A stretch of 12,650 bases of DNA from Comamonadaceae bacterium. GTDB lineage: Bacteria; Pseudomonadota; Gammaproteobacteria; Burkholderiales; Burkholderiaceae_C. The stretch lies in contig CANKNK010000014.1 in the NCBI GenBank assembly GCA_947483455.1, positions 1 to 12,650 on the forward strand, given 5' to 3'. Every line of letters begins with the position of its first letter. Position 1 is the stretch's first letter. This document shows positions 3,260-6,055 of this stretch, piece after piece. The notes under the pieces were generated by a model. It was not told the DNA's origin. It saw only the letters and a program-made list of their open reading frames with translations, and made no database searches. A program made the translations under genes and the position numbers.

Positions 3260-4198
3260 ATTGACAGGCCCGAGATTGATGTGGCGTGCAAACTGCTGCG
3301 CCAAATAGTCTTCACCATGCTCGAGCACAAAATAGCGGAAGGCCTCGGCCGCGGGCGATAATAGCTTGGACAGCATGTGGACCACATTCCAGGCGCGCAC
3401 CACCGGAGCGCCTTCTACATCCAGCACGGCAATCAAACGGTTGTCCAGTTCCAGACCCAAGGTGTGCAGCGACAAAAAACTCAGTCCCATGCCCGCCATC
3501 ACCGCCTGTTTAATGGTTTCATTGCTGGCCATTTCCATGCTCACACGCGGTTCCACGCGGGCTTTTTCCAAAAAGCGTTCCATGGCAGCGCGCGTACCCG
3601 AGCCGGGTTCGCGCAATATAAAAGGCTGTGCCTGCAGTTCCAGCGGAGCAATAGTTTCGCCACGCGCCAATAGGTGGCCCACGGGCGCCACAAAAACATG
3701 CGGATGCGCGGCGAAAGGCTCGGCACGCGTTGCCATTTCGGTGGGCGGACGGCCCATGATCGCAATGTCCACCTCATTGGCGTAGAGCATCTTGACCAGT
3801 TGCTCGCGGTTGCCCACCACCAGCTTAATGTCCACGCCTTGGTGCTCTTGGCGAAAGCGCGCCAGCAAATGCGGTAAAAAATACTTGGCCGTGCTGACCA
3901 TACCAATCGTGAGCAAGCCCACTTCCAGCTTTTGCAGCCGGGCTGCGGCGTCTTCCGCATCTTTTAAGGTCGACAACATTTTGCGGGCATAGACCAGCAT
4001 GTATTCGCCCACCGTCGTCAGCGTCACCGTGCGCCCACTGCGGTCGAACAAGGGCATGCCAATGTGCTTTTCCAGCTCGCGCACCTGCATAGTCACGGCC
4101 GGGGGCGTGAGATTGAGGGTTTGCGCTGCGCGGGCAAAGCTCAGGTGGCGGGCTACTTCGCTAAACACCCGCAGCTGGCGGAAGGTGGCGTTTTTCAT
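3230..4198 (-). CDS. cbbR: LysR-type regulator CbbR of the Calvin-cycle genes
   Basis: CbbR activates cbb operons in response to metabolites such as RuBP, PEP or NADPH, depending on species. The 322-residue protein has the N-terminal winged HTH (about 4-63, with FRQLRVFSEVARHLSFARAA and LTPPAVTMQVRELE), a linker helix, and a periplasmic-binding-like effector domain (about 90-300, with GMVSTAKYFLPHLLARF and REPGSGTRAAMERFL as in CbbR proteins). The start at 4198 matches the usual LysR N-terminus, although no good ribosome site is visible. It is divergent from sgaA; cbbL lies one gene further on. The operator proposed for sgaA begins at its ATG, so autoregulation is likely. Its 3' end overlaps the bchP-linked membrane gene by 30 bp with no terminator between them. 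Confidence 0.93.
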   Translation of the reverse strand: MKNATFRQLRVFSEVARHLSFARAAQTLNLTPPAVTMQVRELEKHIGMPLFDRSGRTVTLTTVGEYMLVYARKMLSTLKDAEDAAARLQKLEVGLLTIGMVSTAKYFLPHLLARFRQEHQGVDIKLVVGNREQLVKMLYANEVDIAIMGRPPTEMATRAEPFAAHPHVFVAPVGHLLARGETIAPLELQAQPFILREPGSGTRAAMERFLEKARVEPRVSMEMASNETIKQAVMAGMGLSFLSLHTLGLELDNRLIAVLDVEGAPVVRAWNVVHMLSKLLSPAAEAFRYFVLEHGEDYLAQQFARHINLGPVNSGLIAPAGS

Positions 4199-4264
4199 TA
4201 AGTAATAGCTTAACTCAAACCAAACAATATTTGAATTTACTTACACATCTTGGACTTTTATAGT
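4198..4264 (+). promoter_or_regulatory. Predicted CbbR-dependent promoter of sgaA
   Basis: Inverted element TTAAG-N6-CTTAA (4198-4213) is followed by a TTTACT -35 (4236-4241), a 17-bp spacer and a TATAGT -10 (4259-4264). The predicted start is near 4271, which places the inverted element at about -65, the usual recognition-site position for LysR regulators. The whole block matches the cbbL promoter without gaps at a distance of 1751 bp. The element touches the cbbR start codon. The leader to sgaA would be about 200 nt. In the leader I see only a small inverted repeat, GCGTA/TACGC (4328-4346), and no known riboswitch. Confidence 0.65.
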
Positions 4265-4471
4265 CAACATCGTAAGCAAAAGCGATGCGAATGCAGTTCC
4301 GGCACAGCGGTTAGCCCCTCCCTTTAAGCGTACGAAAAAATTACGCCGCGCGGTGGGAATCGGCCTGAGATGCCAGCCCCTGGCGCGATGCAGCCCATGC
4401 GTTTGCGCACCTAGTTGCACTGTATTGCTTTGAATTTTGCATTTGTGTTCTAACCTCGAAAGGATATTGCC

Positions 4472-5725
4472 ATGGCTGGTCGTAATTTTCTCTTTGTCCC
4501 CGGTCCCACCAATGTGCCAGAGCGTATTCAGCGCGCCATGATGGTGTCAATGGAAGACCATCGCTCACCGCGCTTTCCCCAGCTCACCCAAACCATCATG
4601 GCAGGATTGCGCGAAATTTTTCGCACCCAGTCCGGTACGCCTTTTGTATTTCCTTCCTCGGGCACCGGTTGCTGGGAAGCGGCACTGACCAACACCTTGT
4701 CACCCGGGGACAAAGTGCTGGCGGCCCGCTTTGGCCAATTCAGCCACCTGTGGATTGATATGTGCGAGCGCCTAGGCCTCGATGTGCAAATCGTGGAATG
4801 CGAGTGGGGCACCGGCGTGCCATTGCAGCAATACGAAGACATTCTCAGAGCCGATACACAACACCAAATTAAAGCCGTGCTGGTCTGCCACAACGAAACC
4901 GCTACCGGTGTGGCATCTGACATTGCCGGTGTGCGCGAAGCCCTCGACGAGGCCTCGCACCCGGCCCTGCTGTTTGTGGACTGCGTTTCCTCGTTAGGCT
5001 GCCTGGATTTTCGCTTCGATGACTGGCGCATCGACATGGCCGTGTGCGGCTCGCAAAAAGGTTTGATGCTGCCTGCGGGTCTGGGCATTCTGTGCGCTAG
5101 CGCTAAGGCACTGGCGATGTACCCATCGTCCAAGCTCAAGCGGGCTTACTTTGATCTGCCGGACATGATCCAAAGCAATGCGACCGGCTACTTCCCTTAC
5201 ACGCCCGCTTTAACGCTGATGTACGGTTTGATCGAATCGCTCAAGATGATCAGCGAAGAGGGCTTGGACAACGTCATCGCTCGCCACCATTACTTGGCCG
5301 AGGGCGTACGCGCTGCGGTCACCCAGGGCTGGCAGCTCAAGCTTTGCGCCAAAGAGCAGCGCTGGCACTCCGACACCGTGTCGGCGGTCATGCTGCCTGA
5401 AGGTATTGCCGGCACGGAAGTCATAGCCCGCGCCTACCAGCGCTACAACCTGTCCTTGGGCGGCGGTTTGTCCAAAGTGGCGGGCAAGCTGTTTCGCATC
5501 GGCCATTTGGGCGATATGAATGAAATCCATTTGATGGCCGCCATCAATGGCGCAGAAATGGCCATGCTCGATTGCGGCGTCACATTGCAGCCAGGCAGCG
5601 GCGCAGCAGCGGCTGGCCACTATTGGCGCACGCATGAGGCACCATCGGGCTTGTGTGCCATGCCCAAGCCTCTGGTAGTACCCAGCAACACACCGCGCCC
5701 CAACACTGCGCTTGCAACAAGTTAA
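4472..5725 (+). CDS. sgaA: Serine-glyoxylate aminotransferase-like enzyme (class V, PLP)
   Basis: The expected reaction is serine + glyoxylate to hydroxypyruvate + glycine in the cytoplasm. This removes glyoxylate formed from RuBisCO-derived glycolate. The 417-residue protein begins with the family signature GRNFLFVPGPTNVPERI (3-19). It has PSSGTGCWEAALTN (61-74) around the PLP phosphate, CHNETATG (139-146), the PLP-binding aspartate in LFVDCVSS (167-174) and the Schiff-base lysine in CGSQKGLMLPAG (K196). The start ATG4472 has AAGGA seven bases upstream. About 20 residues at the C-terminus look like a variable tail. It lies between cbbR and cbbL and has its own copy of the CbbR-type promoter. 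An alanine-glyoxylate or other class V specificity cannot be excluded, but the N-terminal signature and context favour SgaA. Confidence 0.88.
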   Translation: MAGRNFLFVPGPTNVPERIQRAMMVSMEDHRSPRFPQLTQTIMAGLREIFRTQSGTPFVFPSSGTGCWEAALTNTLSPGDKVLAARFGQFSHLWIDMCERLGLDVQIVECEWGTGVPLQQYEDILRADTQHQIKAVLVCHNETATGVASDIAGVREALDEASHPALLFVDCVSSLGCLDFRFDDWRIDMAVCGSQKGLMLPAGLGILCASAKALAMYPSSKLKRAYFDLPDMIQSNATGYFPYTPALTLMYGLIESLKMISEEGLDNVIARHHYLAEGVRAAVTQGWQLKLCAKEQRWHSDTVSAVMLPEGIAGTEVIARAYQRYNLSLGGGLSKVAGKLFRIGHLGDMNEIHLMAAINGAEMAMLDCGVTLQPGSGAAAAGHYWRTHEAPSGLCAMPKPLVVPSNTPRPNTALATS

Positions 5726-5948
5726 AGCGCGGGCCCTGGCCCGGCACCGCGGACGCGGGACGGTTTAGCCGCGCCCAAGGTTGCGGGCGGCGTTTCGCCA
5801 CCCACTTAGCGCCAGCGATGGAGCCCCCGCCCGTCGGTCTGACCACTCTCGCCCAAAAGCTGCAAACCCGACGAGGCACAGCCAAGGGTCAGCGCTTGCG
5901 CTCTGTGGTGCCCGCTCGAAAACCAGCAGGAATAAAGCCGACGATTGC
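5726..5948. other. GC-rich non-coding gap with three hairpins between sgaA and cbbL
   Basis: No gene is supported here. Several frames stay open on both strands, but none has a ribosome site or recognisable product; the + frame from ATG5818 would give only 48 residues. Inverted repeats are CGGGCC/GGCCCG (5730-5743, 2-nt loop), GGGCGGCG/CGCCACCC around TTT (5785-5803, one mismatch) and AGCGC/GCGCT (5891-5902). The mismatch in the middle hairpin becomes a G-U pair if read as minus-strand RNA. No T-run follows, so a classical terminator after sgaA is not evident. A small RNA or a factor-dependent termination zone is possible. Confidence 0.4.
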
Positions 5949-6015
5949 TTCAGCGATCACTTAACTGAAGTCAAAAAATATATGAATTTACTTTATTGAA
6001 TTTGGCTTTTACAGT
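5949..6015 (+). promoter_or_regulatory. Predicted CbbR-dependent promoter of the cbb operon
   Basis: TTCAG-N6-CTTAA (5949-5964) is followed by the imperfect palindrome TTAACT-GA-AGTCAA (5961-5974), a TTTACT -35 (5987-5992), a 17-bp spacer and a TACAGT -10 (6010-6015). The predicted start is near 6022, giving a leader of about 34 nt to cbbL. The first element lies at about -65, as expected for CbbR. The sequence is sharply AT-rich against the GC-rich gap before it and is a diverged copy of the sgaA promoter. The -10 is weaker than in the sgaA copy (TACAGT against TATAGT), which fits greater dependence on the activator. Confidence 0.7.
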
Positions 6016-6055
6016 CTTTGCCAGATCACCCGAAGCCCTCACACAGGAGACATTG

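Follow-up and report, generated by a model that had tools for sequence, protein, structure and literature searches.

Twin CbbR-type promoters before a predicted sgaA gene and the cbb operon of a freshwater Comamonadaceae bacterium: a probable small regulon

Introduction

In a 12,650-nucleotide (nt) stretch of DNA from a Comamonadaceae bacterium (assembly GCA_947483455.1, contig CANKNK010000014.1, positions 1 to 12,650; hereafter the window), an aminotransferase gene, the predicted sgaA, lies between the regulator gene cbbR and the cbb operon for RuBisCO, and two similar boxes, P1 and P2, stand before sgaA and cbbL, respectively (Table 1). This layout raises the question of whether one CbbR controls both transcription units. 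That one CbbR can serve several promoters is already known; in At. ferrooxidans, it is reported to bind the upstream regions of cbb1, cbb2 and cbb3 in electrophoretic mobility shift assays (PMC2942843). After comparing the locus with its relatives, we consider P1 and P2 to be, probably, two CbbR-dependent promoters of one small regulon. If this is true, a Calvin-cycle regulator directly controls a salvage gene for the product of RuBisCO oxygenation in uncultured freshwater phototrophs. The window's own genome is 58.6% complete, and its source is described as a freshwater photosynthetic bacterium.

Two promoter boxes of one class

A reading made from the letters alone (the sequence-only reading) had aligned P1 with P2 without gaps at an offset of 1751, with 48 of 68 bases identical, and had proposed both as CbbR-type promoters. 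We confirmed the alignment. It is the sole pair of 68-mers in the window with at least 44 matches at any offset on either strand. Dinucleotide shuffles of both intergenic regions (1000) gave best matches averaging 31.6 with a maximum of 36, and in-register shuffles of the two 68-mers (5000) gave a mean of 22.2 and a maximum of 35, which rules out a chance likeness. The spacer between the -35 and -10 hexamers is 17 bp in both boxes, and a palindrome of the published TNA-N7/8-TNA CbbR motif (PMC2942843), which the shared TTMAG-N6-CTTAA fits, was found by inspection upstream of both hexamer pairs.

The assignment to the CbbR class was borne out by a weight matrix built without sgaA loci. We used the best 80 of 166 relatives of the window's cbbR, the nearest of which at the protein level are from Comamonadaceae genomes; together with the window they comprise 63 loci without sgaA and 18 with it (L013 by the visible start of sgaA). 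The matrix was built from 54 of the 63 sgaA-less loci, the other nine being omitted because the core was absent or out of register. It picks exactly P1 (53.3 bits) and P2 (72.6 bits) in the window; these two sole positive matches stand 87 and 107 bits above the next-best place, at -34.

The positions of the boxes follow the same relatives. The box stands at 0 nt from cbbR in 54/63 sgaA-less loci. In 32 sgaA-less relatives cbbR is directly divergent from cbbL; a single box adjoins cbbR there, and cbbL follows at 77-127 nt (at 103-106 nt in the six closest of these relatives). Both boxes in the window, where sgaA intervenes, are placed as in the ancestral layout, P1 against cbbR (0 nt) and P2 at the usual distance from cbbL; in the 13 loci with paired boxes, P2 lies 105-108 nt from the cbbL start codon. 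The bases shared by P1 and P2 are kept in relatives, a comparison that the sequence-only reading had named as a check, and across the 13 paired loci the P1 -35 hexamer and 4/6 of the P1 -10 positions are invariant. P2 outscores P1 in the window and in 9/13 paired loci in all, the reverse being true in L004, L006, L008 and L023.

Two side observations concern these relatives. In L007, L008 and L023, the same cbbR and sgaA are followed by a cbbL of a different type, which looks like an in-place replacement of RuBisCO. In a CbbR clade comprising L029-L033 and L035, the box does not adjoin the cbbR start: L029, L033 and L035 have it at a greater distance, near cbbL, and no box was found in L030-L032, whose contigs carry no cbbL.

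Searches of related genomes

We searched 31 genomes with a second model, R1, trained on 60 cbb or cbbR-adjacent boxes (53 distinct boxes from sgaA-less loci and 7 cbb boxes of genomes with unlinked sgaA), none of them upstream of sgaA. Matches at E 0.05 or better were accepted, and up to 150 first-look candidates were scored per genome (up to 16 in further family genomes), so that weak extra sites may be missed. Among 25 genomes carrying this sgaA (matches of at least 84% identity, fragments included), 22 have exactly two R1 matches, one at the cbb promoter and one at that of sgaA. The remaining three have one match each: G050 is without P2, and in G078 and G063 the contig breaks off inside sgaA. 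A single match was found in each of the six sgaA-less genomes with a close form I RuBisCO. The controls were 23 genomes from the same genus, of which 17 lack a RuBisCO match and 6 have a more distant RuBisCO. No R1 match was found in 22 of them, including 16/17 of those lacking RuBisCO; the lone control match is in G083 (16.4 bits). The two sites are thus nearly exclusive in the genomes searched. As a side observation, the G083 match (L232, 1345-1399) lies 96 nt before the start of a 178-residue open reading frame (ORF), presumably an Rrf2-type regulator.

This sgaA also co-occurs with RuBisCO (23/25 versus 29/75 genomes; Fisher p = 2e-6, uncorrected for kinship), and in the two sgaA genomes without a RuBisCO match the sgaA contig ends before cbbL.

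Seven genomes have an sgaA that is unlinked to cbb; their cbbR and RuBisCO lie elsewhere, in a cbbR-cbbL locus present in every one of them. The second R1 match falls upstream of sgaA in all seven. Common to these sites are a start resembling a palindrome (GAATTTAC, or this with one base changed), 17-nt steps and a -10, and the box lies 102-107 nt from the sgaA start codon in 6/7 loci. They carry weight because they precede the same gene in 7/7 related genomes and have a common architecture. That sgaA keeps a CbbR-type promoter even where it is unlinked makes parallel control likely, as the sequence-only reading had suggested for one CbbR and two units; both promoters are of the CbbR type and their shared bases are conserved.

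The spacer distinguishes two kinds of promoter

The sequence-only reading had held that the ten least conserved bases between P1 and P2, in the -35/-10 spacer, lie where sequence matters least. This proved wrong. Conservation across the 54 sgaA-less boxes is 0.78-0.96 at box positions 46-50, which are altered in P1. Adenine stands at position 47 in 62/67 cbb or cbbR-adjacent promoters versus 0/25 sgaA promoters. The former comprise 51/54 single boxes (29/32 with cbbL within 150 nt and 22/22 without a cbbL match there) and 11/13 P2 boxes, L009 being left out as it has no P2; the latter comprise 0/18 P1 and 0/7 unlinked boxes. Therefore, cbb and sgaA promoters differ as a class. These counts are not independent events because the loci are related, and the absence of adenine 47 in the linked and unlinked sgaA clades may be one ancestral state.

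The missing TATT element would give P1 a different strength or response; because P1 scores below the matrix training range and lacks this conserved element, it may respond unlike P2. A bolder and rather doubtful proposal is that CbbR promoters fall into two subclasses, told apart by TATT after the -35, which the cbb type has and the sgaA type lacks; through them one regulator would read carboxylation and oxygenation demand on RuBisCO differently, tuning photorespiration separately from CO2 fixation wherever sgaA lies. Box position 47 offers a base-level prediction on the promoter difference.

Proposed control and its alternatives

The regulator has LysR-type helix-turn-helix and substrate-binding domains. 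Its score is below the cut-off of NF045990 (TransRegCbbRRhodb; Table 1), which appears not to cover this lineage, since a cbbL-adjacent relative scores 291.3 bits. It is predicted to be CbbR-type by synteny, not by this model.

In the mechanism that we propose, CbbR, encoded by the divergent cbbR, would occupy two stretches of each site, the palindrome TTMAG-N6-CTTAA and the segment covering TGAATTTAC, and would activate RNA polymerase at the TTTACT/TAYAGT hexamers. P2 would drive a cbbLSXYFPZ operon and P1 would drive sgaA. Given that a second version of the promoter stands before sgaA, one regulator probably switches both, and P1, as it touches the cbbR start codon, could also serve autoregulation. 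The Calvin cycle would then be coupled to a serine-glyoxylate aminotransferase, through which glyoxylate arising from RuBisCO would enter the C2 photorespiratory route.

Several observations weigh against joint control by CbbR. P1, at 53.3 bits, is under the matrix training range of 63.5-95.0, and it has no TATT at box positions 46-49, where cbb promoters carry this element. Six of the unlinked sgaA sites reach 16.0-18.6 bits, little or no better than the G083 control, and the seventh reaches 24.4; the score alone is therefore no proof of these sites. Their palindromes have N5 instead of N6 in the five tabulated, and in L104 the site lies 191 nt from the sgaA start codon. The cbb matches in the seven unlinked-sgaA genomes fit by construction, their boxes being in the R1 training set (the sgaA matches do not), and some matches in sgaA-less genomes may also stem from training-set boxes. 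In L009, P2 is absent and sgaA stands 72 nt before cbbL.

One alternative is that P1 is mainly an autoregulatory site of cbbR, and that transcription of sgaA from it is a by-product or else starts at another promoter within the 206 nt that separate P1 from sgaA. The abutment of box and cbbR in sgaA-less loci favors it, and so does the window's cbbR-sgaA gap, which exceeds the roughly 104 nt of most linked relatives. However, unlinked sgaA has a box without an adjoining cbbR, at a regular distance in 6/7 loci, and the P1 hexamers are largely invariant in the paired loci. We therefore regard this explanation as unlikely.

It is also quite unlikely that the sgaA site is read by another LysR-type regulator or is a plain sigma-70 promoter, without CbbR. 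A QscR-like protein would be an example; QscR, a LysR-type CbbR homologue, activates clustered serine-cycle genes and glyA in Methylobacterium extorquens, and its DNA binding is reportedly weakly reduced by glyoxylate (PMC2680597 and PMC3486813). Two unlinked-sgaA genomes, G056 and G081, do encode a second CbbR-like regulator (46% and 44% identity), whereas the other five have no second close CbbR relative (next at most 96.5 bits). Moreover, sites of this class adjoin cbbR itself in most sgaA-less loci, are absent from all but one of the RuBisCO-less controls and agree with the CbbR motif given in PMC2942843.

A third possibility, that sgaA and cbb form one operon from P1 and that P2 is a dispensable relic, would suit L009. 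We consider it very unlikely, given that P2 is the stronger match in the window and in most paired loci and that it persists in L007, L008 and L023 although cbbL there is of a different type (76% identity).

The identity of the aminotransferase bears on what joint control would mean. Its best NCBIfam model is BhcA (NF045640, 586.7 bits, under the cut-off of 650), so that the gene could belong to the beta-hydroxyaspartate cycle and the locus to a carbon-conserving glyoxylate route. PF14031, which we take to be a marker of BhcC, is present in 10/25 sgaA genomes, all of them linked ones. However, it is missing from 15/25, including the near-complete G039, G081, G005 and G050, and present in 4/6 sgaA-less genomes; therefore, PF14031 does not follow sgaA. 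There are no bhc neighbours at the locus, where the adjacent genes are cbbR and cbbL; the genome-wide search covered PF14031 only, not bhcB or bhcD. Among solved structures, the protein is nearest to serine-glyoxylate aminotransferase 6pk1, and where checked, homologues of 65-68% identity in other genera adjoin glyA or mtdA: both genes are neighbours in L189, and mtdA is one in L187 (by hidden Markov model). On a Paraburkholderia plasmid (L238), a 64.8% homologue stands with genes for serine hydroxymethyltransferase and a 2-hydroxyacid dehydrogenase. We set BhcA aside as highly improbable, and this context supports the name sgaA that the sequence-only reading had used. Glyoxylate carboligase was found in 0/18 linked-sgaA genomes, many of them incomplete, and in 3/7 unlinked ones; it is rare in the genus anyway (9/100 genomes). 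Taken together, these results make a C2 photorespiratory route for the predicted SgaA plausible.

Finally, that ongoing gene conversion rather than shared function keeps P1 and P2 alike is scarcely credible: own-genome pairs match at 47.4 versus 46.5 of 68 for cross-genome pairs (permutation p = 0.0496), a marginal effect, whereas agreement between P1 and P2 at a position goes with conservation of that position in sgaA-less boxes (Spearman 0.69), and the two agree at position 47 in 0/13 pairs.

Origin of the arrangement

The sequence-only reading had proposed that the sgaA unit arose by insertion next to the cbb promoter or by copying of it. The retained positions of P1 at cbbR and of P2 before cbbL are consistent with either route. 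P1 positions 1-22 are closer to same-clade single boxes (likeness 0.81) than to unlinked sgaA boxes (0.51), and the P1 spacer resembles neither (0.31 and 0.24). In the sgaA tree the linked genes form one clade (97/98), separate from the unlinked genes (99/97). On the CbbR tree, linkage requires 4 changes, of which well supported branches force at least 3, and sgaA-less loci are nested inside; the two trees conflict on L022-L024.

Comparison with known systems

Known CbbR-controlled cbb promoters, with their R and A sites, resemble this locus in a cbbR divergent from cbbL, the TNA-N7/8-TNA palindrome, sigma-70-like hexamers and one regulator with several promoters, the last being predicted here from sequence. 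In contrast to them, one promoter here precedes an aminotransferase gene and lacks the spacer element kept in cbb promoters.

The QscR system is alike as a CbbR-type regulator of a pathway using serine-glyoxylate aminotransferase, and in this respect it speaks for the proposed control. However, as described in PMC2680597 and PMC3486813, its setting is the methylotrophic serine cycle and QscR is not presented as a cbb regulator, whereas in the window the regulator is encoded by the cbbR next to cbb and would control sgaA jointly with RuBisCO. Serine-cycle-type clusters (L187-L192) hold an orthologous aminotransferase (65-68% identity); no R1 site was found in these six loci of about 4 kb, nor in L237 and L238.

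Cupriavidus necator is likewise a Calvin-cycle betaproteobacterium that must remove glyoxylate. According to PMC7486775, its phosphoglycolate salvage uses the glycerate pathway and the malate cycle, not the C2 cycle. The linked-sgaA genomes differ in the carboligase result given above.

Within the same family, five cbb loci (G211, G383, G157, G345 and G175) have two R1 matches 4.6-12 kb apart in one locus, but sgaA is not among the genes that these boxes precede; those are a RuBisCO gene of 29-31% identity to the window's cbbL (taken as form II) and a cbbY- or cbbF-like gene. We found no literature report of CbbR itself controlling sgaA beside cbb or with RuBisCO, in a search that most subscription journals fell outside; hence, for a cbbR-encoded regulator controlling sgaA together with RuBisCO, no precedent was found. 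Should the regulon be real, a dedicated sgaA promoter would persist across two genomic arrangements, and the linked, unlinked, sgaA-less and single-promoter forms would constitute a natural experiment on matching photorespiration to CO2 fixation.

In two other genera, three genomes (G326, G243 and G101; loci L228, L229 and L230) have a second R1 site before the same kind of gene, whose product of about 365 residues begins M(S/T)KKY and is weakly ApbA/PanE-like in L230, with no Pfam match in L228. This gene is a further candidate regulon member, so that sgaA may not be the only non-cbb gene to have been recruited to a box of this kind.

Layout of the locus

By domain and family profile searches, the window runs from the ppsR-bchG-bchP end of a photosynthesis cluster through cbbR and the aminotransferase gene to the cbb operon (Table 1). 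An Rfam scan of the window gave no family at its gathering score.

Table 1. Features of the window, with coordinates, strand and basis of assignment
Feature	Coordinates	Strand	Basis and remarks
cbbR, CbbR-type LysR regulator	3230..4198	-	PF00126 + PF03466; NF045990 300.7 bits, cut-off 450; orthologues adjoin cbbL; divergent from sgaA; ATG abuts P1 palindrome
P1, predicted CbbR-type promoter before sgaA	4198..4265	+	matrix 53.3 bits; model R1 37.2 bits
P1 palindrome TTAAG-N6-CTTAA	4198-4213		
P1 -35 TTTACT	4236-4241		
P1 -10 TATAGT	4259-4264		
P1 to sgaA stretch, 206 nt	4266..4471	+	similar stretch (88%) only in L002/L085 among loci compared
sgaA, class V aminotransferase, likely serine-glyoxylate aminotransferase	4472..5725	+	PF00266; 6pk1 452.8 bits; glyA/mtdA beside homologues
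P2, predicted CbbR-type promoter of cbbL	5949..6016	+	matrix 72.6 bits; model R1 52.4 bits
P2 palindrome TTCAG-N6-CTTAA	5949-5964		
P2 -35 TTTACT	5987-5992		
P2 TATT	5994-5997		
P2 -10 TACAGT	6010-6015		
cbbL, RuBisCO large subunit of form I (with small subunit)	6056..7525	+	PF00016, PF02788
cbbS	7555..7995	+	PF00101 in ORF 7423-7995; start picked by eye
cbbX	8030..8995	+	TIGR02880 521.6 bits
HAD phosphatase, presumably cbbY-like (from gene position)	9011..9730	+	TIGR02009 103.4 bits, under cut-off 153.35
cbbF, fructose bisphosphatase	9735..10847	+	PF00316, PF18913
cbbP, phosphoribulokinase	10872..11747	+	NF011997 510.7 bits
cbbZ, phosphoglycolate phosphatase (glycolate-yielding step)	11744..12406	+	TIGR01449 182.1 bits, cut-off 180

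The P1 palindrome starts at the first base of the cbbR start codon (4196-4215, minus strand), and no Shine-Dalgarno sequence is visible upstream of cbbR. The unlinked-sgaA genomes have a short gap between the palindrome and the cbbR start codon, which in G081 contains AAGGAG (by eye). Sequence similar to the sgaA-cbbL intergenic region (5726-5948; 93%) occurs only in L003 and its copies among the loci compared, and the distance from the sgaA stop to the cbbL start is very variable (72-480 nt among 14 loci). A second class V aminotransferase, 45% identical, is encoded in G000 (G000:C23:2928-4094, locus L112), divergent from a long ORF of 1013 residues.

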